A stretch of 55,071 nt of DNA, from NCBI GenBank assembly GCA_027577415.1, contig JANBQS010000027.1:1-55071 (forward strand), read 5' to 3'. The stretch comes from Coemansia sp. RSA 922 (lineage: Eukaryota > Kickxellomycota > Kickxellomycetes > Kickxellales > Kickxellaceae). The position numbers and the translations under genes are program-made. This document shows, piece after piece, positions 3,632 to 52,694 of the stretch (position 1 is its first letter; each line of letters begins with the position of its first letter). The notes beneath the pieces are model-generated. The model was not told the origin of the DNA. It was given only the letters and a program-made list of their open reading frames with translations, and did no database searches.

Positions 3632-6600
3632 ATGACTAGTAGCGAGTCGGCGATAGTTACAGAGCTCGAGGCGTATGCCAAGGTAAATATAGTTCAGCCA
3701 CCCTTAATGAAACATGCACTCTACCATTCACAAACTAAAATAGTATAGTGTGAATAAATATAGGGTACTCGGGCTTACTTTCCTGACGATGAGCTCGCTT
3801 GGGTTCAAGCAGTGCTAAAGGAAAAGAGCGTGGCATCGAATATAGTGCGTATGGTGTTTGACGGCGACGGGGCCGAGTACCGGTTCGAGGCAACGATGGA
3901 AGAGCTGGTGCGGCGGGCAAAGACGTTGCCTCCGCTGTGCAATCCGCCAGTACTTGAGGGCATCGACGACCTGACCAACCTGAGCCACCTGAACGAGCCG
4001 GCGGTGCTGCACAACCTGCAGGTGCGGTACGGCATGCACAACATCTACACGTACTCGGGCATCGTCCTGGTGGCGCTCAACCCGTTTGCGCACGTGCCGC
4101 TGTACTCGCAGGACACGCTGGAGGCGTATGCGGGCCGGATGCGCGGGGAGCTGGAGCCGCACCTGTTTGCGATCTCGGAGGACGCGTTCCAAGGCATGGT
4201 CCGCGACAAGCGCAACCAGACGATCATCGTGTCTGGCGAGTCGGGAGCCGGCAAGACGATGAGCGCCAAGCACATTATGCGGTACTTTGCGTCAGCGCAC
4301 GAGGGAAATAATAATGGGAGCAGCAGCAGCAGCAATGAGCCCAGCGCTGAGGCGTCGTCGCCAGCTGGCGGAGGGGTCATCAGCCGCGTGGAGGAGATGA
4401 TCCTGGCGACCAACCCCGTGCTCGAGTCGTTCGGCAACGCCAAGACGACGCGCAACGACAACTCGTCGCGGTTCGGCAAGTTCCTCGAGATCCGGTTCAG
4501 CGAGCGGCACACGATCGAGGCAGCCTTCATCCGCACGTACCTGCTGGAGCGCTCGCGGCTCGTGTACCAGCCGGCGACCGAGCGCAACTACCACGTGTTC
4601 TACCAGCTGCTGCAGGCAGCCGCGGCCGGCGACCTGGCCGACGCGGGCGAGCGCCTGGGGCTGGCGCGCGATGATGGGACGGCGCTGACGTGGCGTGACT
4701 TTGCGTTCACGGCGCAGAGCGGCGAGATCCCGGGCGTCGACGACGCGGTGGAGTTCCGCACGACGTGCGAGGCGCTGTCGACGATTGGCGTCGGGCGCGC
4801 GCAGCAGGCGCAGATCCACGGCGTGCTGGCGGCGCTGCTGCACGTGGGCAACATCAGCATCAGCGGCGCGTCCGAGCGCGTCGGCGCGGCGATTGGCGGC
4901 GATGACGTCGGCGGCGAGGCGGCGTGCCAGCGCGCGGTGGAGCTGCTGCAGATCGACGGCGCGCTGTTCCGCAAGTGGCTGACCAAGCGGCAGATCGTGA
5001 CGCGCAGCGAGAAGATCGTCAGCAACATGACCCGGGCGCAGGCGCTGGTGGTCCGCGACTCGGTGGCAAAGTTCGTCTACGCGCACCTGTTCGACTGGAT
5101 CGTGCGCACCATCAACAGCTCGCTGCTGGGCAACAGCAGCAGTTCTGCGGCCGAGGGCGATGAGGTGGCCGCGTCGTTCATCGGCGTGCTGGACATTTAT
5201 GGGTTCGAGCACTTTGAGCACAACTCGTTCGAGCAGTTCTGCATCAACTACGCCAACGAGAAACTGCAGCAGAACTTCAACCGCCACGTGTTCAAGCTCG
5301 AGCAGGAGGAGTACCACCGCGAGCAGCTCAAGGACTGGACGTTCGTCGACTTCCAGGACAACCAGCCGTGCATCGACCTGATCGAGGGCAAGCCGCTGGG
5401 CATCCTGTCGCTGCTCGACGAGGAGAGCCGGCTGCAGCAGGGGTCGGACACGACCTTTGCCGAGAAGCTCATCAAGCAGTTCGGCTCGCCGTCGACGCCG
5501 GCGGCCGGGTTCTTTGGCAAGCCGCGGTTCGGGTCGGACCGGTTCACGGTGCGGCACTACGCGCACAGCGTGGAGTACGCGGCCGAGGGCTTCATCGACA
5601 AGAACAAGGACACGGTGCCGGACGAGATCCAGAACGTGCTCAAGGCGTCGGGCGACTCGCTGGTGCGCGCCATCCTCGGCAGCGACGAGCCGACGCCGGC
5701 CGAGTCGCGGCTCAGCGTGCGCGCGGCGCGCAAGCCGACGCTGGGCGCGGTGTTCAAGCACTCGCTGGCGTCGCTGATGGAGACGATCGAGGCGACCGAG
5801 TCGCACTACATCCGCTGCATCAAGCCCAACGACGCCAAGGCCGCGTGGGCCTTCGACGCGCCCATGGTGCTGGCGCAGCTGCGCGCGTGCGGCGTGCTCG
5901 AGACCATCCGCATCAGCTGCGCCGGGTACCCGTCGCGCGTGGCGCTGCCCGAGTTCATCCGGCGGTATGGTGTGCTTGTGGGTCCCCAGCCGCCGCCACC
6001 GCCGCAGGAAGAAGATGCCTGGTGCCGCGCCCTGGCCACGCGCATCCTCGACGCCGCCTTCGCCGCCGAGAAGGGCCGCTTCCAGGTCGGCCTGACGAAG
6101 GTCTTCTTCCGCGCCGGCATGCTCGCGCTCATCGAGAAGCTGCGCGTCGAGCGCCTCAACGCCGCCGCCACGGCCATCCAGCGCCTGGTGCGCGCCCACC
6201 AGCAGCGCCGCCGCTACGTGCGCATGCAGCGCGCCGCCCTGCGCATCCAGCGCTCGTTCCGCGGCGCCCTCGCCCGCCGCCGCTTTGCCGCCGCCCGCCG
6301 CGACCGCGCCGCCCGCGCAATCCAGGCCCTCGCCCGCGGCGCCCTCGCCCGGTCACGCGCCCGGGACCGCCGCGCCGCCGTGGTCCGCATCCAGACCGCG
6401 GTCCGCGCGTACCTGGCCCGTGCGTGGTTCCGCGCGGCGCGGCGCGAGCGCGCGGCGCTGTGCATCCAGCGCCTGGCGCGCGGCGTCCTGGCCCGCCGGG
6501 CTGCGCGCCGCGAGGTGCACCTCGTGACCCGGATGCAGGCCCGCGTGCGCGGCAGCAGGGCGCGCCGCGAGCTGCGCAGGCTGCGCGAGGAGGCGCGGTC

Positions 6601-8707
6601 GGCCGCGCACTTCAAGGACGTGACGTACAAGCTCGAGGGCAAGCTGATGGTGCTGACGCGCCAGCTCGACGAGTCGCAGGCCCGAGCCGCCCAGCTGTCG
6701 GACCGCCTGCGCCGGGCGCTCGAAGACGCCCAGGCCCTGCGCGACGGTCAGGAAGCGACTGTCGACAGGGCCACTGCTGAGCTGGCTCAGAAGGTGGCCG
6801 TGCTGGAACGGGCCAAGGCTGATGCCGACGCACAGTGCGCCGTGCTAGTTGAGCAGCGCGATGCTGCCTTGATTGATCTGGAAAAGGCCCATGCCGAGTC
6901 TGCCCGCCAGAGAGACGACGACGCGGACGCCCGCGCCAGGCTCGAGGCCAAGCTGGCCGAGCTGGAGCAGGAGCTGGCCACCAGTCGCGCTCAGCTCGCT
7001 GATGTGCGTGCTCAGCACCAGACTCAGCAGACGCTGCAGCAGCAGCAACAGCTGCAACAGCCTGCCCCACAACAGCTCCACCATGTGCCGTCTGGCGCTG
7101 ACCTCACTGCCTCGTCCATTAAGCGCTCCGACACTGCCAGCCGCTGGCGTGCTGCTGCTGGGTTCTCGGCTACTGGCTACGACTTGGCTGATCAGCAGCT
7201 TGGCCAGGCTGCTGCTAATCACCAGCCTATTGCCAATAATGGCCGTCGCCCGCACTCGGTCGACCACGCTCTTCCTGAATTACCTGCTGGTGCTCCGGTA
7301 GCAGCGAATAAGCGTGCTACGCTGGGGACTGACGACAGCCGGTCTTTGGCGCGTATGCTGGGCTCACTCTCACCTACTGCTGGTAACGGCGCTATGATAG
7401 CAGAGGCCGAGGAAGAGGCTGTATTCGAACTGCGTAGCGAGGACGAAGTACGCGAGATGCTTGAGCGCGAGGAAAACCTGATCACAGAGGTACTAAACGA
7501 ACTAATCGGCGACCTACAAGTACCACTACCCAATTTGGATGCCGAGTACCAGCCACCAGACCTCCTATTCCCGGCCCACTTGATTGGTCTCTGTGTGATC
7601 AAAATGTTCCAGTACAATTTGGCACGCCGCATCGACAGACTGTTAATGTCGGCAATCGCTCGTGTGCAAAAGAAGACTGCCGCTTTCGAGTCCGATTACA
7701 CCTCGGCGTTCTGGTTGTCCAATGTCTTTGAGCTCTTGTCTATTATCAAGACCTCGATGACCGAGCACCAGTCGTCTACCCACGAGTACGCTGACAGTGA
7801 GCGCGCTATGAACGATGGTATGCAGTATTTGGAGACGCTTTTGTCTGATATTTACTTTGGCTGGATCAAAGATTTGCAAAAGCGCTTCGTCAAGCTCATT
7901 ATACCAGGCGTAGTCGAGTCGGAGGCTCTACCGGGATTCACAGCTAGCGATTCCGGCTTCTTCAACCGTTTGATGGGTACGGGTCCGCGAGAGTCTACGG
8001 TAAAGATCGAAAATGTTCTTTCGTTCTTTAACCATATTTGGCGCACTATGGAGTTCTACTACGTTGACCGTGCCATTATGCGTCAGATCATGTCGGAGCT
8101 TCTGTGTAATATCGGAGTTACCGCGTTCAACAACATAATTATGCGTCGCAACTTCTGCTCTTGGAAGCGCGGTATGCAGATCCAGTATAATTTGACTCGT
8201 ATCGAAGAATGGTGCAAGACCCACGCTGTAGCCGACGCAACTCGCAATCTCGATCGACTATTACAATTGGTAAAACTGCTGCAGTTGCAAAAGGCGACTG
8301 ACCAAGATATCGATATTATGTTTGAGGTCTGCGATTTACTCAACCCGGCTCAGGTCAAGAAACTACTAAGTATCTATGCCGTCAGCGACTACGAGAATCC
8401 TATTGTCGGTCCCGTTATGAATGAGGTTACTAGGAGGGCGATGCCGTCGGAGAAGACTGATAAGATATTGCTCGATACTAACGATCTCAACGATCAGGTC
8501 CTGTATTTGACTGCTCGTAAGGTGCCGGCTATTGAGACTTATATTCCGCCAGAGTTCCGTATGCCGAGGATTCGCGCTCTTGTCGATTCGCAAACTGATA
8601 TGGCTTATGACGATGACGATGATGAGGACGAGGATGTCGATAATATCGTACCTGCCGATTATAATGACTATTCGCCATATGGTCAGCAACTGCAACATCA
8701 AATTTAA
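3632..8707 (+). CDS. MYO2: class V myosin heavy chain (two exons)
   Basis: This is an actin-based cargo motor that in fungi carries secretory vesicles and organelles to growth sites. Exon 1 is 3632-3682 and exon 2 is 3764-8707, giving 1664 residues. The long frame opens with no ATG at its head (only GTG at 3812). Reading back to the AG at 3763 restores the conserved class V start GTRAYFPDDELAWVQA, and the upstream ATG exon joins it in phase. Features are the P-loop GESGAGKT (175-182), switch I NAKTTRNDNSSRFGK (about 240), switch II DIYGFE (from 494), six IQ motifs for light chains or calmodulin (about 819-965), a short coiled coil (about 965-1090), a Gln-rich linker, and a DIL cargo-binding domain (about 1290-1600) before an acidic tail. 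The motor and IQ region is extremely GC-rich, while the DIL half is not. The symbol follows the yeast family. Confidence 0.95.
3683..3763 (+). other. intron of the myosin V gene (81 bp, phase 0)
   Basis: It starts GTAAAT directly after the AAG codon ending exon 1 and ends in ATAG before the GGT codon that opens exon 2. Splicing joins the short N-terminal exon to the canonical myosin N-terminal residues without a frame change. An in-frame stop (TAG 3761-3763) excludes read-through from further upstream. It is the only intron I could support in this window. Confidence 0.85.
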
Positions 8708-40198: not shown

Positions 40199-40860
40199 GT
40201 GACACATGTTTCTTTGAACAAAAAGAAGCAAGTAAAACTGTGATGTCATTTTTCTTTGCTTTTTAGTGCTTGATGACGAGTGAGGAGAGCAAAGAAGAAA
40301 AGGCAAGCTGCAACAACAAGATGTACGACAGCTGAAAAATATTTTTACAAATCTGTCTATGTGTTTGTTTAGCTAGATTTGGCGACACTGATCCAGAGGC
40401 CTGCAGGAGCAGGCACACTATTTACCTTACAAGATTGACATTCAACGCTCTATGTTTCTCTTTGTCCTTTATGGCTTTAAGTCACTATGACGCATGCCCT
40501 TTGAACAAAAAAAAAGCAAGTAAAACTGTGATGTCATTTTTCTTTGCTCTTTAGCGCTTGATGACGAGTGAGGAGAGCAAAGAAGAAAAAGCAAGCTGCA
40601 ACAACAAGATGTACGACAGCTGAAAAATACTTTTACAAATCTGTCTACGACGCATGTCCTTTGAACAAAAAAAAGCAAGTAAAACTGTGATGTCATTTTT
40701 CTTTGCGCTTTAGCGCTTGATGACGAGTGATGAGAGCGAAGAAGAAAAAGCACGCTGCAACTATGAGATGTACAACAGCTAAAAGATATTTTTCAAATCT
40801 GTCTATGACGCATGTCCTCTGAACAAAAAGATGCAAGTAAAACTGTGATGTCATTTCCCT
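40199..40860. repeat. tandem repeat array of about 158-160 bp with CRE-like sites, 3-4 copies
   Basis: Copy 1 is about 40199-40371. After a 117-bp unique insert come copy 2 (about 40489-40648), copy 3 (40649-40806) and a truncated copy 4 (40807-40857). Each starts CATG.....T[CT]TGAAC, continues AAGCAAGTAAAACTGTGATGTCATTT, written here as two elements AAGCAAGTAAAACTG and TGATGTCATTT, and copies 1-3 also have GCTTGATGACGAGTGA. TGATGTCAT is one base from the CRE/ATF site TGACGTCA. The array lies directly upstream of the TATA box of the small gene at 41072, so it could be an enhancer-like module. Confidence 0.88.
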
Positions 40861-40970
40861 TGCACTTGCATTTGCTGAGGAAAAAAAAACTGCTAGACTG
40901 AACGGATTTCACCTCCACCAGCTTTTTCCCCCCTGCATCAAACAAGGGGGGTTTCTCTCGTCCTCACTGC

Positions 40971-40980
40971 TATAAAAAGA
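40971..40980 (+). promoter_or_regulatory. TATA box of the small gene at 41072
   Basis: TATAAAAAGA lies about 100 bases before the ATG and is followed by GAGCTGCTGCCA and a C/A-rich leader. Confidence 0.65.
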
Positions 40981-41071
40981 GAGCTGCTGCCACATATTGC
41001 TGTTTTCGAACAACACCAATTTTCTTCTCAACCAAACTCTTGCTTACCTGTCCAACATATTAGCCGCAACC

Positions 41072-41473
41072 ATGACTAAATTTTATTTTGCTGTTAGAAT
41101 AATTTCGGAGGGCAACTACGAGATTTGTGGACACGCGAAGAAAGAACATACTATTACTAGTAAGCAGGTGAAAGAAACTCTACAAAATAAATTTCTTGAT
41201 ACAAATTATAGAACTCTGGAGGTGAATTTATATTCTAACAATGCAGTCATTCTACCTGGTTCTCTCTTACCCGGTGCCAAACTAGAAGATGCTATCAATG
41301 AGGTATTAGCGGCTGATGATAACGTCTTTATACTTGTGCATTTTCCTACTGAAAAAGAAATTGAGAAATTTGATAACAATACTCTTTTATGGAGTCTAAC
41401 CCCTCTAGTAACTGAATATTCTGAGAAGAGTAGACTGGATTATATTGGAAATACGGGTGCCTACGCCCCCTGA
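41072..41473 (+). CDS. small protein with possible Crinkler-like ubiquitin-fold header
   Basis: The product has 133 residues from ATG 41072, which follows a TATA box and an A/C-rich leader. The layout recalls the N-terminal ubiquitin-like header of Crinkler (CRN) proteins: an N-terminal KFYFAVRI strand, a helix (ITSKQVKETLQNKF), a RTLEVNLY strand, then LLPGAKLEDAINEV and a final strand NVFILVHFP. In CRN proteins a similar 'set-up, linker, IHILV-P' ending precedes the effector part; here only about 35 residues follow, so it would be a header without effector. The resemblance is by eye and weak. It is otherwise an orphan. Confidence 0.6.
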   Translation: MTKFYFAVRIISEGNYEICGHAKKEHTITSKQVKETLQNKFLDTNYRTLEVNLYSNNAVILPGSLLPGAKLEDAINEVLAADDNVFILVHFPTEKEIEKFDNNTLLWSLTPLVTEYSEKSRLDYIGNTGAYAP

Positions 41474-41794
41474 AGGCAGTAAAAACAGCTGATTAGGCCA
41501 GTGTATAAGCCATGTTCCTCAGCAACATTGCGAGAGGAATATATTTTTCTACAGACTAGCATTGTCTATTCTTATTGTGAATGGTAAAGTCTTCTTTAGA
41601 AATTTGACGTGTAGATTAAGGTTGTAAGCATCTCCTGGCAATAGATTACTTTTCTATACTTTAATGCAAATAAGAAATATTCATAGTTATATTGTTAAAG
41701 CCAACTCGCCATGAAGCTATTATTGAAAAATGGGAGGTCATTAGTGGGCAAACATAGTGCCTAGGACGCTGGTTTATGCTAGGCGGGCTTAGTC
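41474..41794. other. intergenic spacer between convergent genes
   Basis: This is 321 bp of AT-rich DNA between the 3' ends of the small gene and the peptide gene; nothing else is recognised. Confidence 0.5.
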
Positions 41795-41959
41795 TCAGTT
41801 GCCGCCTTTATGCCACCAGTAGTGACGAGGGTCGGCATCAGCCATAGCCATGGCCGCAGCCTCTGCATTTGCCATTGCCATAGCTTCTGGATCGGCATAG
41901 GGCGTAGCCAACACACCAGCGCTGGCAAAGAAGACAACGAGCATAACAGACTTGAACAT
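41795..41959 (-). CDS. secreted peptide precursor with dipeptidyl-aminopeptidase-type pro-region
   Basis: The product has 54 residues from the ATG at 41959 to the TGA at 41797-41795. Residues 1-18 form a clean signal peptide (MFKSVMLVVFFASAGVLA). Residues 19-44 are thirteen consecutive dipeptides whose second residue is always Ala or Pro (beginning TP-YA-DP-EA-MA and ending MA-DA-DP). The C-terminus is RHYWWHKGGN. Stepwise removal of X-Ala/X-Pro pairs by a Ste13/DPP-IV-type aminopeptidase, as known for promelittin and for yeast alpha-factor spacers, would stop before Arg-His and release that decapeptide. A TATA box lies 90 bp upstream on the same strand, and the gene follows three chitinase genes. 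A pheromone, antimicrobial or signalling peptide is possible; the role is not determined. An overlapping frame (41779-41994) has a weaker case. Confidence 0.72.
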   Translation of the reverse strand: MFKSVMLVVFFASAGVLATPYADPEAMAMANAEAAAMAMADADPRHYWWHKGGN

Positions 41960-42048
41960 CCCGAGAGTAAGCGAGTGAGTAAAATAAAGAGCAAAAAAAG
42001 CTGTGTAAGGAAAAAAAAACCCTTGGTCTGTTGGCCTCCACCTCGCTC

Positions 42049-42057
42049 TTATTTATA
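42049..42057 (-). promoter_or_regulatory. TATA box of the secreted peptide gene
   Basis: Read on the minus strand the sequence is TATAAATAA, within GGTATAAATAAGAGCGAG, 90 bases before the ATG at 41959. It fits the TATA-to-start spacing of other small genes in the window. Confidence 0.7.
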
Positions 42058-42162
42058 CCAGGAATGAGGCTTTTTGGCCGCGGCATTTATTACAAAAAGG
42101 TTCACAAAGTGTTAAAACATATTCCCTCACCAAGATTGATAACAGAGCTACTTGTATGTGAA

Positions 42163-43446
42163 CTACATGTCAACAGCAGTAGCTGCCGCAGCTGGCGGTG
42201 ATGACACTGGCATAACTGCCTCAGCATCCACACCACGCTTTCTAGCTGCGGCAGTGGTCTTGAACGTGCGCACCACATCGAGAAGCTCATTGTTATAGTC
42301 CATGTTCACCGACCAAATCATTGCTCCCGCCAAGCCCTTGGATGAAGCATAGTCTATCTTGATCTGAAGGCTCTGCGGGTCATCGTACGAGATAAACTGC
42401 TTAGTGCTCGGATTGAACAGCCACGGCGTCTGCGACACAGAGTCCCACTGCTTGACCCACGGCGCCGCAGCAGTATTCGGACTGGTCAGTACTCCCTGGT
42501 CGCGCAGATGCTTCCACTGCCACACGCCGCTGTTGGCCGTCGACCCCGCACACGCGTCATACCAAGGTGCATCCTCAGAGTCGCCCAATGGCACGACTTG
42601 CGACTGTGGCTGGTACTGGTTAGTCGGGTCCTTGGTCATATCCTGCAGCGCAATAGTCGACCGCCCGTAGAACCCAATACCAGCAGTCAGTTGGTTGGCG
42701 GGGAATCCAGCTCCAATCCAGTCGTTGATTGCAGAGGCAAAAGATACTTGGAGTCCCTCGCCTTGCTGGAAATTGAGTGGCGCGTTGGGACCTGTGACGT
42801 TGTTCCACCCGCCGTTAATATCGTACTGCATGAGGTTGGCGAAGTCGACAACTTTGGCGAATGCAGAGACATCCTTCGACGGAACGCTATTGACTTCGAA
42901 TGGTTGCACGCGCACAGCCAACGTAACCAACTTCTGGCCAGCGCCAAACGCTGTAGTCAAAGCCGCGCGCAAATCTTGAAGGAAGGCGAGGTAGTTGGGC
43001 GTATCGTTGACGACATCAAAAACGTTACAGTTATCGCCTAGACGGCCAGGATACTCCCAATCAATGTCAATGCCGTCGAGATTATTAGCCTTGACGTAGG
43101 TGACCATGCTGCTAATCAAAGTCGATCGAGCGCCGGCATCTTTCATGATGGTGGAAAAGTAATTGGAGCCCGTCCATCCGCCCACTGACATTAGGACTTT
43201 GGTGCCGGCGCTGTGCATACTGGTGACGAGTGCGGGTAGGAACCAGTCGCCGTCAAAGCTAAAGGTGCCCGACGATGTAGGGATGCCGAATGCCATATTG
43301 ACGTGCGTGTATTTGGACCAATCGACGTTGGCTGACTGGGCGCGCTTCCACGATGGATAGTAGCCCATGATCACCGGGCCGCCAAACACAGATGTGGCGA
43401 GAGACATTGCCATAGTGGCAAACGCGTAGACCGAGTGGATCCTCAT
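42163..43446 (-). CDS. GH18 chitinase 1 (secreted, no binding module)
   Basis: The product has 427 residues and is a retaining endo- or exo-chitinase that cleaves beta-1,4-GlcNAc polymers. A signal peptide (about 1-22) precedes the TIM-barrel domain beginning VIMGYYPSWKRAQ. The substrate-site strand KVLMSVGGWTGSN and the catalytic motif DGIDIDWE (124-131, acid E131) are intact, and MIWSVNMDYNNEL near the end holds the conserved barrel-closing Trp. The C-terminus has only a short Ala/Pro-rich tail, unlike chitinases 2 and 3, which have cysteine-rich modules, so it may act on accessible or soluble substrate. All three genes lie in tandem on the minus strand. Roles in wall remodelling or digestion of prey or host chitin are both plausible. 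Confidence 0.93.
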   Translation of the reverse strand: MRIHSVYAFATMAMSLATSVFGGPVIMGYYPSWKRAQSANVDWSKYTHVNMAFGIPTSSGTFSFDGDWFLPALVTSMHSAGTKVLMSVGGWTGSNYFSTIMKDAGARSTLISSMVTYVKANNLDGIDIDWEYPGRLGDNCNVFDVVNDTPNYLAFLQDLRAALTTAFGAGQKLVTLAVRVQPFEVNSVPSKDVSAFAKVVDFANLMQYDINGGWNNVTGPNAPLNFQQGEGLQVSFASAINDWIGAGFPANQLTAGIGFYGRSTIALQDMTKDPTNQYQPQSQVVPLGDSEDAPWYDACAGSTANSGVWQWKHLRDQGVLTSPNTAAAPWVKQWDSVSQTPWLFNPSTKQFISYDDPQSLQIKIDYASSKGLAGAMIWSVNMDYNNELLDVVRTFKTTAAARKRGVDAEAVMPVSSPPAAAATAVDM

Positions 43447-44194
43447 AGTAAATTAGTTGAGTGAACGGTAAAAGTGTGTAGTGTTGCAGGAGCTGTAGTG
43501 TAATAGAGGGTAAAGTTGTGAGTATGGAGTATTGGTGGCAATGTGGACCTTGTGCGGTGGTCTTTATACTCTGACTTTTTCCCTGTCACTCTATACCAGG
43601 TTGTCAAATTAGTGCTATCGCTGTACCCTATTCAGTCAATTGAGTCACATATTAGACTAGCGGCACATGATAAATATTGGAGCAAAGTCATATATTGGCA
43701 GCAGGTCTCTTGTATAGAGTCACCCGTCATACTCCGAGCTTGTCAAAACCAGGCTTGCATAGTCCCAGAGTCTAGCATTCACAGAATCGCTCATAAATAA
43801 AGTGGCGGCATAGATTAGAAATAGAGATGGGTAAGCAGAGGAAGTAAAATAGCGGACACGTGGTTATCACCAGCCACCACAATTACAATTGTTATTTGAA
43901 TTAATGAGTCTGTTTTCAATACCGGTTCCAGAACACATGCCCTGAGCTTTCCTTGTTGGCCACATGGCCAAGCGTTATATTGTCGGCATGACTCATGCAG
44001 ACAATTTACAGCTGCAACCACATGCACAGACTTTTATTCTCACTCTTTTTATTTCTAAGCACCGAGCGTAAAATCTACCAGCGCTAGTTTCAAAAGTAGC
44101 TGTGTGTATTTTATTGTATTAAAGATGACAAAAGTGAGTAAATCAGGTTCTTGAGAAGGAAAGGCTGGAGACTAGAGCCTCATGTTTTGGCTTA
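43447..44194. other. intergenic region upstream of chitinase 1
   Basis: No gene is seen in 748 bp. Minus-strand TATAAAG at 43562-43568 is placed 116 bp before the chitinase 1 start. A perfect short palindrome TTGGCCACATGGCCAA (7-bp arms) lies at about 43955-43970. Confidence 0.6.
43562..43568 (-). promoter_or_regulatory. TATA box of chitinase 1
   Basis: TATAAAG on the minus strand, within AGTATAAAGACC, lies 116 bases upstream of the ATG at 43446. Confidence 0.6.
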
Positions 44195-45733
44195 CTACAT
44201 CGACTTGTGTATTAGCGCGTCAATATCATGCTTGGCCCGCCCAAATAAAGGCCAGGTACAAGTGATGGTCCCTCCTACCTCCTGACACACTGTGCCTAGC
44301 CCGCATGACCGCATCAGCCATTTTCCATTATTGCAGACGGCATACGCTGCATTGCGGCCTCCAACGTCAATGCATTTGTAGCCTACAAAGCTACATTTTT
44401 CTCCGGCCGCAAAACTACCACCCGATGGCTGCGACGATGGCTGCGGCCCATTTGCATCGACTGTTGAGCTTTGTACAGGCTCAGCGGGCTTGGTCCTAAT
44501 ACTCGTGCTGGCCACGGTAGGCGTAGCATTGCTAGTGCCATTAGCAGGGCCTTTGCCGCCAAACGACCGGGCTGCGTCAACAAGCTCGCTGTTGTGGTCC
44601 ATATTCACCGACCATATCATGACACCGCCTAGTCCACGGGATGCCGCATAGTCGGACTTTATCCTGATGCTATCGGGATCATCGTAAGAAAGGAAAATCT
44701 TTGTAGACGGGTTAAACAGCCACGGGGTTTGTGTCACACCGTCCCACTGACGTATCCACGGCGCCGCAGCAGAGTTGGGGCTTGTTAATACGCCTTGACC
44801 GCGCAAACTCTTCCACTGCCATGTGCCTGATGGTGAAGTAGACCGAGCACAGGCGTCGTACCAGGGAGCGTCATCTGAGTCGCCTAAAGGAACTTTGTGC
44901 AATTGCGGCTGATATTGGTTTTGCACATCACGAGTCATGTCCTGTTGTGCTACTGTAGAGCGGCCGTAAAAGCCCAGTCCCGCAACCAGTTGCTTTGCTG
45001 GCCAACCAGCGCCAGTCCATGCATCTATAGAAGAAACGAGTGACAAGGGCGTGCCCTTTCCAGCTTCATAGTTGAATGGCGCATTGGGCCCAGTATCGGA
45101 CATCCAGGGACCGTTAATATCGTAGGCCATTATATTGGCATAGTCTACTACTTTGGCAAACGCCGAGACATCATTGGACGGGGAGTTGTTAATGTCAAAT
45201 GGCTGCGTGCGCACTGCCAGCGTAATCAATTTGTTGCCTGTGCCAAACGATGTGTCGAATTTGCTGCGCAGATCTTGCAAGAACTTTAGGAAATTAGGCA
45301 TGTCATTTTGCGCGTCATAAACGTTGCAAGTATTGCCTTGCCGACCTGGGTACTCCCAATCAATATCAATGCCGTCAAGGTTATTGTTCCTCACATAGTT
45401 GACCATACTAACCAGCATGGTATTGCGCGTAATGTCATTTTTTAGTATGTCAGAGAAGAAGTTGGACCCTGTCCACCCTCCAACCGACAAGAGTGCTTTT
45501 GCTCCTCCGCCATGAACTTGGTTGAGAATCTGCGGTAACACCCACTGGTCTTCAAAGCTGAATGTACCATCTTGAAGAGGTATGCCAAATGCAATATTAA
45601 TGTGTGTGTACTTTGAAAAGTCAACGCCATCCATCTTTGCGCGCTTCCAGCTAGGATAGTAGCCCAAGATTACAGGTCCTGCTGCCAAGCTGACTCGCGC
45701 CAGTGCAAGCAAAATAGCAGACACGCGGTACAT
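44195..45733 (-). CDS. GH18 chitinase 2 with C-terminal CBM19-like module
   Basis: The product has 512 residues. A signal peptide (about 1-18) precedes the GH18 barrel with KALLSVGGWTGSNFF and catalytic DGIDIDWE (D120 to E127). A Ser/Thr/Pro-rich linker (about 395-440) joins a cysteine-rich end with six cysteines (about 445-495; for example KCSFVGYKC, YAVCNNGKWLMRSCG, CTW), matching the spacing of CBM19 chitin-binding modules such as that of yeast Cts1. Binding to chitin should hold the enzyme on the wall. It shares most barrel residues with chitinases 1 and 3; duplication was therefore local. Confidence 0.93.
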   Translation of the reverse strand: MYRVSAILLALARVSLAAGPVILGYYPSWKRAKMDGVDFSKYTHINIAFGIPLQDGTFSFEDQWVLPQILNQVHGGGAKALLSVGGWTGSNFFSDILKNDITRNTMLVSMVNYVRNNNLDGIDIDWEYPGRQGNTCNVYDAQNDMPNFLKFLQDLRSKFDTSFGTGNKLITLAVRTQPFDINNSPSNDVSAFAKVVDYANIMAYDINGPWMSDTGPNAPFNYEAGKGTPLSLVSSIDAWTGAGWPAKQLVAGLGFYGRSTVAQQDMTRDVQNQYQPQLHKVPLGDSDDAPWYDACARSTSPSGTWQWKSLRGQGVLTSPNSAAAPWIRQWDGVTQTPWLFNPSTKIFLSYDDPDSIRIKSDYAASRGLGGVMIWSVNMDHNSELVDAARSFGGKGPANGTSNATPTVASTSIRTKPAEPVQSSTVDANGPQPSSQPSGGSFAAGEKCSFVGYKCIDVGGRNAAYAVCNNGKWLMRSCGLGTVCQEVGGTITCTWPLFGRAKHDIDALIHKSM

Positions 45734-46182
45734 TGCTATTCAATAATATAGAAAAGGGGGAATTAAGTTGCAAACATGTTTGCATAAAAGAAAGCCAAGT
45801 AGAAAAGGCAATTAGCCCTGTTTCTTTAATAGTTGCGTTTAGTGGGAATAATATACAGAAGAATCGAGGCTCTCATTGTCACATTGAACGCCAGCATGGG
45901 ATAGAAATGTTAAGATTTTTTATGGAATGACTATACAAAATGCAAGCCGAGCATTACTAAGGATGCCAGCCACGCATATACTCCATGCATTAATTTTATA
46001 CCGAGAATGGTTGAAATTTAAAAGCCACACAGTTGTATAGTAATACTTTTTTGGCCGCACAACTGGGATAAAGCAAGTTTTTGGCGCCGCTGACATAGTT
46101 AATACACGCAAAAACATTAAATATAAAACCAATAGTTTAATTTGTATACTAGATAGCAAAAATAATAAATAATTTATAAAAC
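45734..46182. other. intergenic region between chitinases 2 and 3
   Basis: This is 449 bp, AT-rich, with no supported gene; the promoter of chitinase 2 should lie in its left half, but no clear TATA box is visible. Confidence 0.45.
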
Positions 46183-47742
46183 TTAGTTCTTCTTTGGCCA
46201 TCCACAAGTAATACCATCTCCTGAGCGTAGGCAAGCCGTGCCCTCTCCACACTTCATTGCCAACCATTTACCGTTGACACAGAACATGTATGCAGAATTA
46301 GTACCAGTATCATCACCACACTCTAGTCTGCCATTGGTCTCGCAAGCCCCTCCATTAACTGGTGCCACAAATGCTTCATTGTTAAGCGGCACGTTGCTTG
46401 GCTCCGGCGCTTCTTCATTATCGCTTGGCTCTGGCACAACCTCATTATCGCTTGGACTGTCTTCGTCCGGATTAACTTCTTCTGATGGTTTGTTGTCAGT
46501 TGGCTTCTTCTCTCCTGGCTTATTGCCATTGCTGAGAGACGGGCTGCTGCTACCGCTCCAGTTCTTGACTACCTTGAGAAGCTCACCATTGTAGTCCATC
46601 TCAATAGACCAGACCATTGCTCCTGCTAGACCCTTTGATGCTGCATAGTCGATTTTGGCCTTGATGCTCTGGGGATCGTCATAAGAGATATACTGCTTGG
46701 TGCTCGGATTGAACAGCCAGGGCGTTTTTGAAACAGGGTCCCACTGCCTCACCCATGGTGCCGCAGCCTTTGTGGGGCTAGTGAGTACTCCCTCGCTACG
46801 CAAGTTCTTCCACTGCCACACGCCGCTGTTTCCCGTAGTTCCCGCGCAAGTATCAGTCCATGGTGCGTCCTCTTTGTCGCCTAGGGGAACTACTTTCGAC
46901 TGTGGCTGGTACTGATTCTTGGGGTCCTTTGTCATGTCATCTAGTGCCAGAGTCGACCGACCATAGAAGCCAATTCCGGCTGTTAACTGGTTAGCCGGCC
47001 AACCAGCTCCAGTCCATGCGTCAATCGCCGAGACAAACGACATTTGCATGCCCTTGTCTTTCTCAAAGTCAAATGGCGCATTAGGACCGGTGAGATCAGC
47101 CCACGCGCCGTTAATATCGTACTGCATAATATTGGCAAAGTCTACAACCTTGGCAAACGCCGAGACGTCTTTAGATGGTGCTCCGTCGACGTCAAATGGC
47201 TCTACGCGTACCGCCATAGTAATCAATTTCTTGTCCTTGGTAGAGCCGGCATCAAGGGCAGCGCGCAGGTCCTGTAGGAAGGAGAGGAAGTTCGGTGTGT
47301 CCTTGGCCTCATCAATAACATTACAGGTATTACCCAGGCGACCCGGATACTCCCAGTCAATGTCTATGCCGTCGAGGTTGTTGTCCTTGATATAGCTGAC
47401 CATGCTGTCCATAAACGTTTTTCTTGTAGTCGTGTCCTTTAATATTGTAGAAATGAGGTTTGATCCAGTCCAGCCGCCAACCGACAAGAGAACCTTGGTA
47501 CCCGCAGCATGTAGGTCAGCTACAACACTTGAGACAAATGACTGACCCTCGAAGGAAAACGTTCCGGATGCTGCAGGGACTCCGAATGCGAGATTGATGT
47601 GCGTGTATTGTGAGAGATCCATGCCGTCGATCTTTGCCTTCTTCCAGGACGGGTAATATCCGACGACGATTTGGTCTTGCTGGGCCTTTGCGGCGGCTCC
47701 GAGAGCCAGTCCCAGAACAGAAAGTAGAATACGGCAACGCAT
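46183..47742 (-). CDS. GH18 chitinase 3 with acidic linker and CBM19-like module
   Basis: The product has 519 residues. A signal peptide (about 1-22) and GH18 barrel carry KVLLSVGGWTGSNLI and catalytic DGIDIDWE (D124 to E131). The linker (about 400-450) is unusually acidic, with repeats of the kind SDNEVVPEPSDNEEAPEPS, in contrast to the neutral Ser/Thr linker of chitinase 2. The six-cysteine CBM19-like end (CETNGRLECG, FCVNGKWLAMKCGEGTAC, CGW) is intact. An acidic linker could repel the anionic wall or bind cations; that is inference. It is the first gene of the three-chitinase tandem in direction of transcription. Confidence 0.93.
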   Translation of the reverse strand: MRCRILLSVLGLALGAAAKAQQDQIVVGYYPSWKKAKIDGMDLSQYTHINLAFGVPAASGTFSFEGQSFVSSVVADLHAAGTKVLLSVGGWTGSNLISTILKDTTTRKTFMDSMVSYIKDNNLDGIDIDWEYPGRLGNTCNVIDEAKDTPNFLSFLQDLRAALDAGSTKDKKLITMAVRVEPFDVDGAPSKDVSAFAKVVDFANIMQYDINGAWADLTGPNAPFDFEKDKGMQMSFVSAIDAWTGAGWPANQLTAGIGFYGRSTLALDDMTKDPKNQYQPQSKVVPLGDKEDAPWTDTCAGTTGNSGVWQWKNLRSEGVLTSPTKAAAPWVRQWDPVSKTPWLFNPSTKQYISYDDPQSIKAKIDYAASKGLAGAMVWSIEMDYNGELLKVVKNWSGSSSPSLSNGNKPGEKKPTDNKPSEEVNPDEDSPSDNEVVPEPSDNEEAPEPSNVPLNNEAFVAPVNGGACETNGRLECGDDTGTNSAYMFCVNGKWLAMKCGEGTACLRSGDGITCGWPKKN

Positions 47743-50951: not shown

Positions 50952-52694
50952 ATGCCTTTCGTAAATTCAAATACAATGTCAGCGCTTTCACCTTTACAAT
51001 TGCTTCCGCAACATGTCATTCAGCTTATCGTCCACAATGTCACTGGTAGCAGTCGTGTAGTTTTTGATGGTGTCGATGCTAACTCGCACGAGTACAGGGC
51101 GTTATTAAAGCCGCTGCTGTGGGTCTGTCGTAGCTTTCGTTTTGCCGTTTACTCGCGCTACTGTAACAACTTTGAGCTTAGTCTCTGTAACATGTCAGTG
51201 GGTTCTCTAGAAAAACAATACCTGGGATTGGGCCATACTAACATCGACTATCGTACGCTCAACTATCTCGGTTATTCTACGCACCGCTTGGCAAAGGACA
51301 TAACTATATTTCTGGAGGAGCGAGTCGTGTATTCTGGTGAGGCCCTGGAAGCGTTGTCTCGCTCGCTCTGCGAAGTCTGCCCTTTTCCACTTGCTCGCAA
51401 GATCTTGTTTGTTTTTGTCAAGGATGAGAGGGCCGACATAGATATGGACGCCTGGAGCGACCCGTTGCTCGCTGGAGCTAATATTGACGCATTTGTCGGG
51501 CGCATCAAGCAGATGGCGCCCTCGGTCAGTGAAATTGGAGTGCAACCCGTAGACCGTGACAGCACGCCAAGCGTATTCAACCAACACTTTAGCAATCTGG
51601 TGTCCCAACTCTATCGGCTTGCCTCTCGCGTTGAGTATGGATACGGCTTAGACACTGCGGATTTGATGCGGCTACAACAGGACAGAATTTGCAGCCTGAC
51701 ACACGTCACCTACGTCTCCACCTCGAGAACTGACAGCGCCCATCAGTTTGTGCAACTGGCGCGGAAGAATGCCTTGACTTTGCAGTCGCTGAGTTTCGAG
51801 TGTGGGCATGACCTGTTTGTTTCGGATCTTGTCCAGCATGCTGATGGCAGCCCCGTAGCATATCCGCGCTTGCTGACACTAAAGCTGCTGTCATGGTCAG
51901 ATTCTGACGAGCTGAGGCGACCGGTATTTCGTGGTGCTGTGCCTTTCCCTGTCCTTCGGCGACTATATATCGACACGGACTACCCATTTGGCGATAATAC
52001 CTTATTTAGAGGCAACGCGGCCACACTCGAGGTGTTGCATATGCGGTTGGACCACCTGAGTGTCTCCATACTTCGCGAGTACAAAGTGTTTGTGTCGGGC
52101 AGTCATCCAAAGCTGCAAGTGGTCAACATTTCGTTCACCACCAACTTTGTGTTGGAGCTGCTTGCTTCGACTAGTGAGGCCGTGGATTTTATTTTTAGTA
52201 TTGGGTCAGGAGTGGCTGTGCGGGTATACAATCAAGTTACTCCTTTCGCTAATCCAGCAGCCATATTTTCATCTCTTGACAGCCATGCATGTATCCAGGT
52301 CCTGTTGCTACCAAACTGGCGCCCAGTTCTTTGGCAAGTCATCACCTTGATAGAGTCGCTCCCTCTACTGTCGGATTTACAAACTTCATCACCCAGCCTT
52401 GGATTAATGCCTGACGGGGTCACCTTGTACAGACTTCCTGAACACATGCGACTGAATTATGCGCCGATGGGCAGGAGGTTCCGGTGCTGGCATCTCTGCA
52501 GTGGCCATGTCAAAAAATTCACGGAACTAGTGAACTGCGTGCTTTTGCTGGCATTGGCTTGTCCCAATTTTGACTATGCTGCTCCTCCTTCTTTCCAGCG
52601 CAAATTGTTTATGGAGCAGATGGAAAGGGATATTGCCTCGGATCGTTTCAAGCCCTATGCGCCTCGTTTGCGTCGCTTGCTGTTTAAAGGCTAG
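50952..52694 (+). CDS. F-box/LRR protein D
   Basis: The product has 580 residues from ATG 50952; M9 (50976) is an equally good start since the F-box begins LSPLQLLPQHVIQLIVHNV. The motif continues with LLWVCRSFRFAVYSRYCNNF. The LRR part carries the signature DYPFGDNTLFRGNAATLEVL, shared with F-box/LRR genes A and B, so all three descend from one ancestor despite low overall identity. It is intact, while a decayed relative lies immediately downstream on the other strand. Likely an SCF substrate adaptor; the target is unknown. Confidence 0.75.
   Translation: MPFVNSNTMSALSPLQLLPQHVIQLIVHNVTGSSRVVFDGVDANSHEYRALLKPLLWVCRSFRFAVYSRYCNNFELSLCNMSVGSLEKQYLGLGHTNIDYRTLNYLGYSTHRLAKDITIFLEERVVYSGEALEALSRSLCEVCPFPLARKILFVFVKDERADIDMDAWSDPLLAGANIDAFVGRIKQMAPSVSEIGVQPVDRDSTPSVFNQHFSNLVSQLYRLASRVEYGYGLDTADLMRLQQDRICSLTHVTYVSTSRTDSAHQFVQLARKNALTLQSLSFECGHDLFVSDLVQHADGSPVAYPRLLTLKLLSWSDSDELRRPVFRGAVPFPVLRRLYIDTDYPFGDNTLFRGNAATLEVLHMRLDHLSVSILREYKVFVSGSHPKLQVVNISFTTNFVLELLASTSEAVDFIFSIGSGVAVRVYNQVTPFANPAAIFSSLDSHACIQVLLLPNWRPVLWQVITLIESLPLLSDLQTSSPSLGLMPDGVTLYRLPEHMRLNYAPMGRRFRCWHLCSGHVKKFTELVNCVLLLALACPNFDYAAPPSFQRKLFMEQMERDIASDRFKPYAPRLRRLLFKG

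Follow-up and report, generated by a model that had tools for sequence, protein, structure and literature searches.

Does a reading frame of only 54 codons, on the minus strand of a Coemansia contig, encode a secreted peptide that is released from its precursor two residues at a time? The stretch of DNA analysed here, called the window, is 55,071 nucleotides long; its contig is referred to as C27, and C33, C8, C31 and similar labels denote other contigs of the same genome. Translation confirmed each of the elements that had been predicted from the sequence: the 54-codon minus-strand gene, an 18-residue signal peptide, 13 dipeptides and the terminal sequence RHYWWHKGGN. Within the 54-residue translation the order is MFKSVMLVVFFASAGVLA, then TPYADPEAMAMANAEAAAMAMADADP, then RHYWWHKGGN and the stop codon. 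The leader that follows residue 18 reads TP YA DP EA MA MA NA EA AA MA MA DA DP, with Ala or Pro closing 13 of the 13 dipeptides. The cleavage site of the signal peptide was placed from the sequence by the −3/−1 rule, and signal peptides were judged by eye and by hydrophobicity. The location of the gene, its parts and its neighbours is summarized in Table 1.

Table 1. Features of the peptide locus and its neighbours in the window.
Feature	Position	Strand	Basis or remark
Whole precursor gene	41795..41959	minus	54 codons + stop; translation
Signal peptide, residues 1-18, MFKSVMLVVFFASAGVLA	41906..41959	minus	sequence; predicted cleavage site
Pro-region, residues 19-44, 13 X-Ala/X-Pro dipeptides	41828..41905	minus	translation
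Predicted mature peptide RHYWWHKGGN, residues 45-54	41798..41827	minus	predicted processing
Conserved promoter and 5' leader common to paralogous genes	41960..42198	minus	alignment to C33
TATAAATA box	42050..42057	minus	starts 98 bases before ATG
Partner gene encoding 133 aa, by eye without a signal peptide	41072..41473	plus	convergent to peptide gene
GH18 chitinase, no CBM19 match, neighbour outside the mechanism	42163..43446	minus	Pfam and alignments

The suggestion that such a phased run is hard to explain by chance was borne out. Ala and Pro account for 14 of the 26 residues in the window leader, and the probability of perfect phasing given its own composition is 1.35e-6; the same calculation gives 7.0e-4 and 0.02 for related genes on C8 and C33, respectively, which are described below. 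Short ORFs with an ATG start, a length of 30-150 aa and a hydrophobic N-terminus were scanned in 154,373 bases, a non-random sample comprising the window and stretches around partner-gene and DPP loci. An X-[AP] run of at least six was present in three of the 100 ORFs of this class, and these three are the peptide family itself (the script's run lengths of 14, 9 and 7 also count the final dipeptide of the signal sequence); runs in the other 97 did not exceed three. When this DNA was simulated 40 times with a second-order Markov model, a run of at least six was seen in 0 of 3023 ORFs, with a maximum of five. A chance ORF is rejected by the simulations, by the phase probability and by the existence of paralogues.

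When the window precursor was used as a query, a single match was found in the genome at E<=0.001 (20.4 Mb, 960 contigs). Relaxing the search to E<=10 revealed two further loci, C33:19601-19744 (E 0.06) and C8:31328-31429 (E 2.8), each with an ORF of 83 codons. The C33 precursor is composed of MLKFILLLVLLACAGVFA, the pairs TP VA EP NP VP AP AS DP, and a mature part that begins FRSGWRGGRPGGWW; that of C8 has the same signal peptide followed by TP VA EP NP VP VP AA DP. Pairs ending in Ala or Pro therefore make up 8/8 of the C8 leader and 7/8 of the C33 leader, the exception being Ala-Ser. Both precursors end in 49 Gly/Trp/Arg-rich residues (the script length of 50 includes the stop symbol), and the signal peptide of the window gene aligns with MLKFILLLVLLACAGVFA. 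Genome searches that scored the best candidates, using the whole precursor, its first 34 residues and the promoter DNA, gave no further family members beyond these three loci.

At the level of DNA, C33 and C8 are 93% identical across 10.4 kb and look, as far as this comparison goes, like a pair of haplotypes or the products of a recent duplication. As near-copies they represent about one independent case, and the family has approximately two independent members. The protein-only match between C27 and C33/C8 is weak and non-significant (E 0.014 to 2.8, the better matches being 0.014-0.06), so that the argument for homology leans on the promoter and the partner gene. Positions 41888-42198 of the window align to C33:19673-19978 with 68% identity (E 6.5e-21), and this alignment spans the first codons, the leader and the TATA box. 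A TATA box had been predicted 90 bp upstream; the box is present, and its distance is 98 bases before the ATG instead. The same TATAAATA motif starts 93 bases before the ATG in both C33 and C8, and it occurs four times in the window when both strands are counted. Resting on the conserved promoter and 5' end, and on the linked partner gene, the precursors of the window, C33 and C8 are homologous, and the window gene with its paralogues is a real small gene family.

The original prediction depended on constraint at the protein level, and this is seen in the reliably aligned part as synonymous-biased change. For the C33 and C8 precursors there are 7 changes in 56.2 synonymous sites and 6 in 180.8 nonsynonymous sites, giving an omega of 0.25 (one-sided Fisher p 0.015); the two indels between them are both whole-codon, of 4 residues each. 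Over the first 24 codons, omega is 0.36 (p 0.04) for C27/C33 and 0.29 (p 0.016) for C27/C8, all of these tests being based on small counts with p-values uncorrected for several tests. Full-length values are 0.78 for C27/C33 and 0.43 for C27/C8, from alignments that are loose beyond the leader.

A precursor of this type calls for a dipeptidyl aminopeptidase, and a Ste13/DPP-IV gene with conserved catalytic regions, as the original prediction would lead one to expect, is present in the genome. A search with the DPPIV_N family identified C681 (E 1.3e-87) and C204 (E 1.9e-86), whose protein products, each of 948 aa, closely resemble one another; by eye, an N-terminal tail is followed by a single membrane span, the layout of Ste13/Dap2. 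There is a weak third place on C311 (E 6e-4), whose protein matches Peptidase_S9 and, under the cut-off of that model, NCBIfam Dpp5. The C681 protein can be aligned with solved DPP4 over residues 216-918, and its stretches DWVYEEE, GWSYGGY, GTGDDNVH and DSDHGI stand opposite like stretches in that enzyme, presumably with roles in catalysis and in binding of the N-terminus. Along with the paralogues, the conserved TATA box and the synonymous-biased change, this gene supports the predicted secreted precursor of the dipeptide-trimmed type, and maturation of the family by dipeptide trimming is likely.

In the mechanism that we propose, signal peptidase in the ER would take off the 18-residue signal peptide, and a late-secretory dipeptidyl aminopeptidase of the Ste13/DPP IV type would then peel away the X-Ala/X-Pro leader pair by pair, from TP onward. 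Trimming would halt once the second residue is not Ala or Pro. This residue of the predicted mature N-terminus is His in the window (Arg-His), for which reason trimming should stop there, and Arg in the paralogues (Phe-Arg). A cationic Trp/Gly-rich peptide would be freed without any Kex2 cut, the leader perhaps holding it inactive or soluble until export. A Kex2 site (KR/RR/KK) before the peptide is absent from all three precursors, so the endoprotease step of alpha-factor would not be needed, and the layout is closer to that of promelittin than to that of alpha-factor.

The overall architecture of signal peptide, X-A/P leader and Trp/Gly-rich end is kept although the length of the leader differs (13 versus 8 pairs). 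None of the mature parts contains Asp or Glu; their R+K charge is +2 in the window and +5 and +5 in the paralogues, and Trp makes up 2 of the 10 residues in the window peptide and 12/49 and 13/49 in the others. The W-W and G-G columns of the window decapeptide are common with the paralogues, in a part where the alignment is loose. From this composition and the length of the paralogue products, we think that an outward antimicrobial or wall-active peptide is most likely, with a signal as the second choice; the freed peptide would most probably act outside the cell on the membranes or walls of competitors, and not as a mating signal. The best explanation for the locus is a three-locus family of secreted peptides, trimmed by Ste13/DPP IV and acting outwards, for which we infer the order of cleavage, the activity and the target; our confidence in it stands at about the half-way mark.

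Several known systems share parts of this arrangement. In promelittin and mastoparan, a signal peptide is followed by an X-Ala/X-Pro leader and one membrane-active peptide. These precursors of Hymenoptera venoms have the same layout as those of Coemansia, in which an in-phase X-Ala/X-Pro run starts directly after the signal peptide and reaches up to the mature N-terminus, this N-terminus is of a kind expected to resist further trimming, and a DPP IV/Ste13 enzyme is encoded by the same organism. Passages of one report describe the conversion by DPP IV and cite Kreil 1980 on stepwise cleavage (PMC7291082). The Coemansia peptides differ in being fungal and Trp/Gly-rich, the likeness considered here being one of layout, and their predicted trimming enzyme is a membrane-bound protease that acts in the secretory pathway and not in venom.

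The ascomycete alpha-factor (MF-alpha) resembles the Coemansia system in its X-A/X-P spacers and Ste13-type protease gene. However, the Coemansia precursors are without a Kex2 site or repeated copies, their dipeptides stand directly after the signal peptide, and the products of the paralogues do not have the length of an alpha-factor. KEX2-processed repeat proteins (KEPs) that carry a STE13 signature, described in passages of PMC6339444 as secreted fungal peptides, have X-A/X-P pairs before the peptide and are similar in this respect. By definition, KEPs have Kex2 sites and repeated motifs; the three precursors are without such sites, and C27 encodes a single peptide. Membership of either the alpha-factor or the KEP group was rejected because Kex2 sites are absent. 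Gly/Trp-rich antimicrobial peptides are a loose class; they are cationic, Trp-rich and without acidic residues, as are the mature parts in Coemansia, the likeness being one of composition only.

A different model is that the trimmed decapeptide is a pheromone or hormone that, like alpha-factor, binds a GPCR on the producing cell or on a mating partner. The Ste13-type leader and the short, cationic, Trp-rich product are consistent with this, and passages of PMC6339444 report Ste13 signatures in repeat precursors of Basidiomycota and Rhizophagus irregularis, with speculation about hormone or pheromone roles. The paralogues, however, end in 49 Gly/Trp-rich residues, and the single peptide copy and lack of a Kex2 site also argue against such a role, which weakens the mating pheromone of the original prediction. 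Pfam searches for STE2 and STE3 gave no candidate in the genome, though none of 14 control genomes matched either, and a Pfam scan of 18 of the 79 listed window ORFs of at least 100 aa gave no receptor family. Part of one source places STE2 as a novelty of the Ascomycota (PMC9202105). On balance, we consider a pheromone unlikely.

It has also to be asked whether the leader is removed at all. The gene may encode a small secreted wall or matrix protein, rich in Ala and Met, that works whole, the alternation being a by-product of repeat growth. Although the low complexity (Ala, Met) of the pro-region, the Ala-Ser pair in C33 and the repeat-like mature parts of the paralogues fit this proposal, phase is kept across loci that differ in leader residues and lengths, and in C27 the phase is improbable for its composition, C8 and C33 having the less extreme probabilities given above. 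Furthermore, the pattern begins right after the predicted signal peptide and ends right before the Trp-rich end. An untrimmed product is a doubtful reading, and removal of the leader remains our preference.

A further model concerns the window copy alone and is compatible with the other readings: it may be a decaying duplicate, with only the C33 and C8 genes functional. We regard this as rather improbable. The window copy has a much shorter mature part than the paralogues and a fast-evolving partner gene, but the frame and signal peptide are intact, the leader is perfect (13/13) and longer than those of the paralogues, the TATA box is kept, and the first 24 codons show synonymous-biased change. 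In this respect, it is relevant that the gene adjoins a chitinase with a 3' end that has apparently been replaced, so the window copy may have moved. A diverged chitinase paralogue on C10 (81%) runs on into a tail resembling CBM19 by eye, but it matches the window chitinase only as far as 42264. The alignment with the flank upstream of the C33 peptide gene starts at 42198 and takes in the last codons of the chitinase. Judging from these two alignments, the chitinase gene apparently had its 3' end replaced by the peptide cassette.

Three tandem minus-strand GH18 chitinase genes occupy 42163-47742 of the window, two of them with CBM19. When the window was compared by blastn with 20 kb around the C33 gene, the bodies of the chitinases were unmatched save for 30 bases at 45905-45934; C8 was compared with them through its 93% likeness to C33. 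A role for the chitinases in the peptide system was considered and judged incidental, their bodies being unmatched around the C33 gene.

A homologous gene of ∼130 codons is convergent to the precursor at C27, C33 and C8, with 38% identity between C27 and C33. Searching the genome for this partner (E<=10) gave seven places, of which four are strong (C33, C8, C31 and C27) and three weak: C90 (E 0.004), C19 (0.055) and C495 (0.072). From ORF lists of the 3.1-3.4 kb loci and a scan of wider stretches, a peptide gene stands beside the partner only at C27, C33 and C8. The C31 partner is the closest to that of the window (60% identity), and the peptide gene is absent there; the C31 copy of window positions 40508-41597 is 79.5% identical, with similarity ending at 41597. 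Between C33 and C8, the partner has 4 synonymous and 18 nonsynonymous changes (omega 1.16, p 0.70), and no constraint is seen. Members of the partner family are about 115-150 aa long, with invariant columns that include Y5, A7, V8, G14, I18 and H21.

Pfam matches to three members of the partner family were all under the cut-off, two members had no match in NCBIfam, and no solved-structure relative was found at E<=1; the AlphaFold model has a pLDDT of 39, too poor to use. Assignment of the partner to a known family was rejected on these results and on those of the protein database search given below. The partner may serve in immunity or regulation, or it may simply be an unrelated gene carried along. 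A bolder proposal, which we rate as very unlikely, is that this early-diverging fungus carries a mobile two-gene cassette, in which a Kex2-independent, Ste13-trimmed, cationic Trp-rich peptide and a fast-evolving convergent partner, serving to protect the producing cell or to sense the peptide, have spread from locus to locus as a unit, as a fungal counterpart of toxin-and-immunity systems.

Among 5.8 billion proteins there was no homologue of the window precursor, which fits its original description as unannotated, and none of the partner at E<=1 among 4487 candidates from the same collection; this collection was queried with three proteins, namely the precursor of the window, its partner and the protease. 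Close Coemansia proteins are included in that database: the Ste13-like protein shares 96% identity along its full length with 'Dpp4p' of Coemansia aciculifera and, over 69%, 99% identity with a protein of Coemansia sp. RSA 2673. By this marker protein, the original prediction was right that the DNA comes from an early-diverging fungus, namely a Coemansia (Kickxellales) near these two. The precursor and partner are either unannotated in that database or of very restricted occurrence. Neither the decapeptide pattern nor a relative of the C8 precursor was found in viral contigs, and a search of prokaryote genomes for relatives of the partner was negative, both being poor places for a fungal gene; across these three collections, each limited in reach, no relative of the family was found outside this genome. 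The window and C33 precursors had no match in Pfam or NCBIfam at the thresholds used, and among the matches listed from open-licence literature no title dealt with such precursors in Kickxellomycotina.

If the favoured reading of a secreted, dipeptide-trimmed family is true, stepwise dipeptide trimming, a process familiar from insect venoms and the alpha-factor of ascomycetes, would be used alone, without Kex2, for secreted peptides in Zoopagomycota, a phylum whose mating genetics is described in passages of PMC10386755 as still not well understood. Genes of this size fall under the usual length cut-offs, so a signal peptide followed by a phased X-A/X-P run provides a simple search rule for fungal peptides that have possibly been missed. 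The family also gives three exact peptides for synthesis and testing.

Other features of the window and assembly were observed. A 580-aa protein without a Pfam match is encoded at 50952-52694, and DNA like its gene recurs several times in the neighbourhood of the C33 peptide gene (L018 3576-6707), with up to 71% identity over 1754 columns. A stretch of ∼150 bases at 32481-32637 matches C33 twice at ∼72% identity, once past the promoter of the peptide gene and again near 29.4 kb, and by these similarities is a dispersed short repeat. An acyl-CoA dehydrogenase gene in the window has a single copy in the genome. Several contigs occur in pairs, including C681/C204 (with very similar DPP proteins), C33/C8 (93%) and C19/C495 (87-94%), which suggests a heterozygous or partly duplicated assembly. 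Finally, positions 3812-8707 hold a gene for a class-V-like myosin with head, IQ and DIL regions, and its G + C content is 65-67% amid surroundings of 43-46%.
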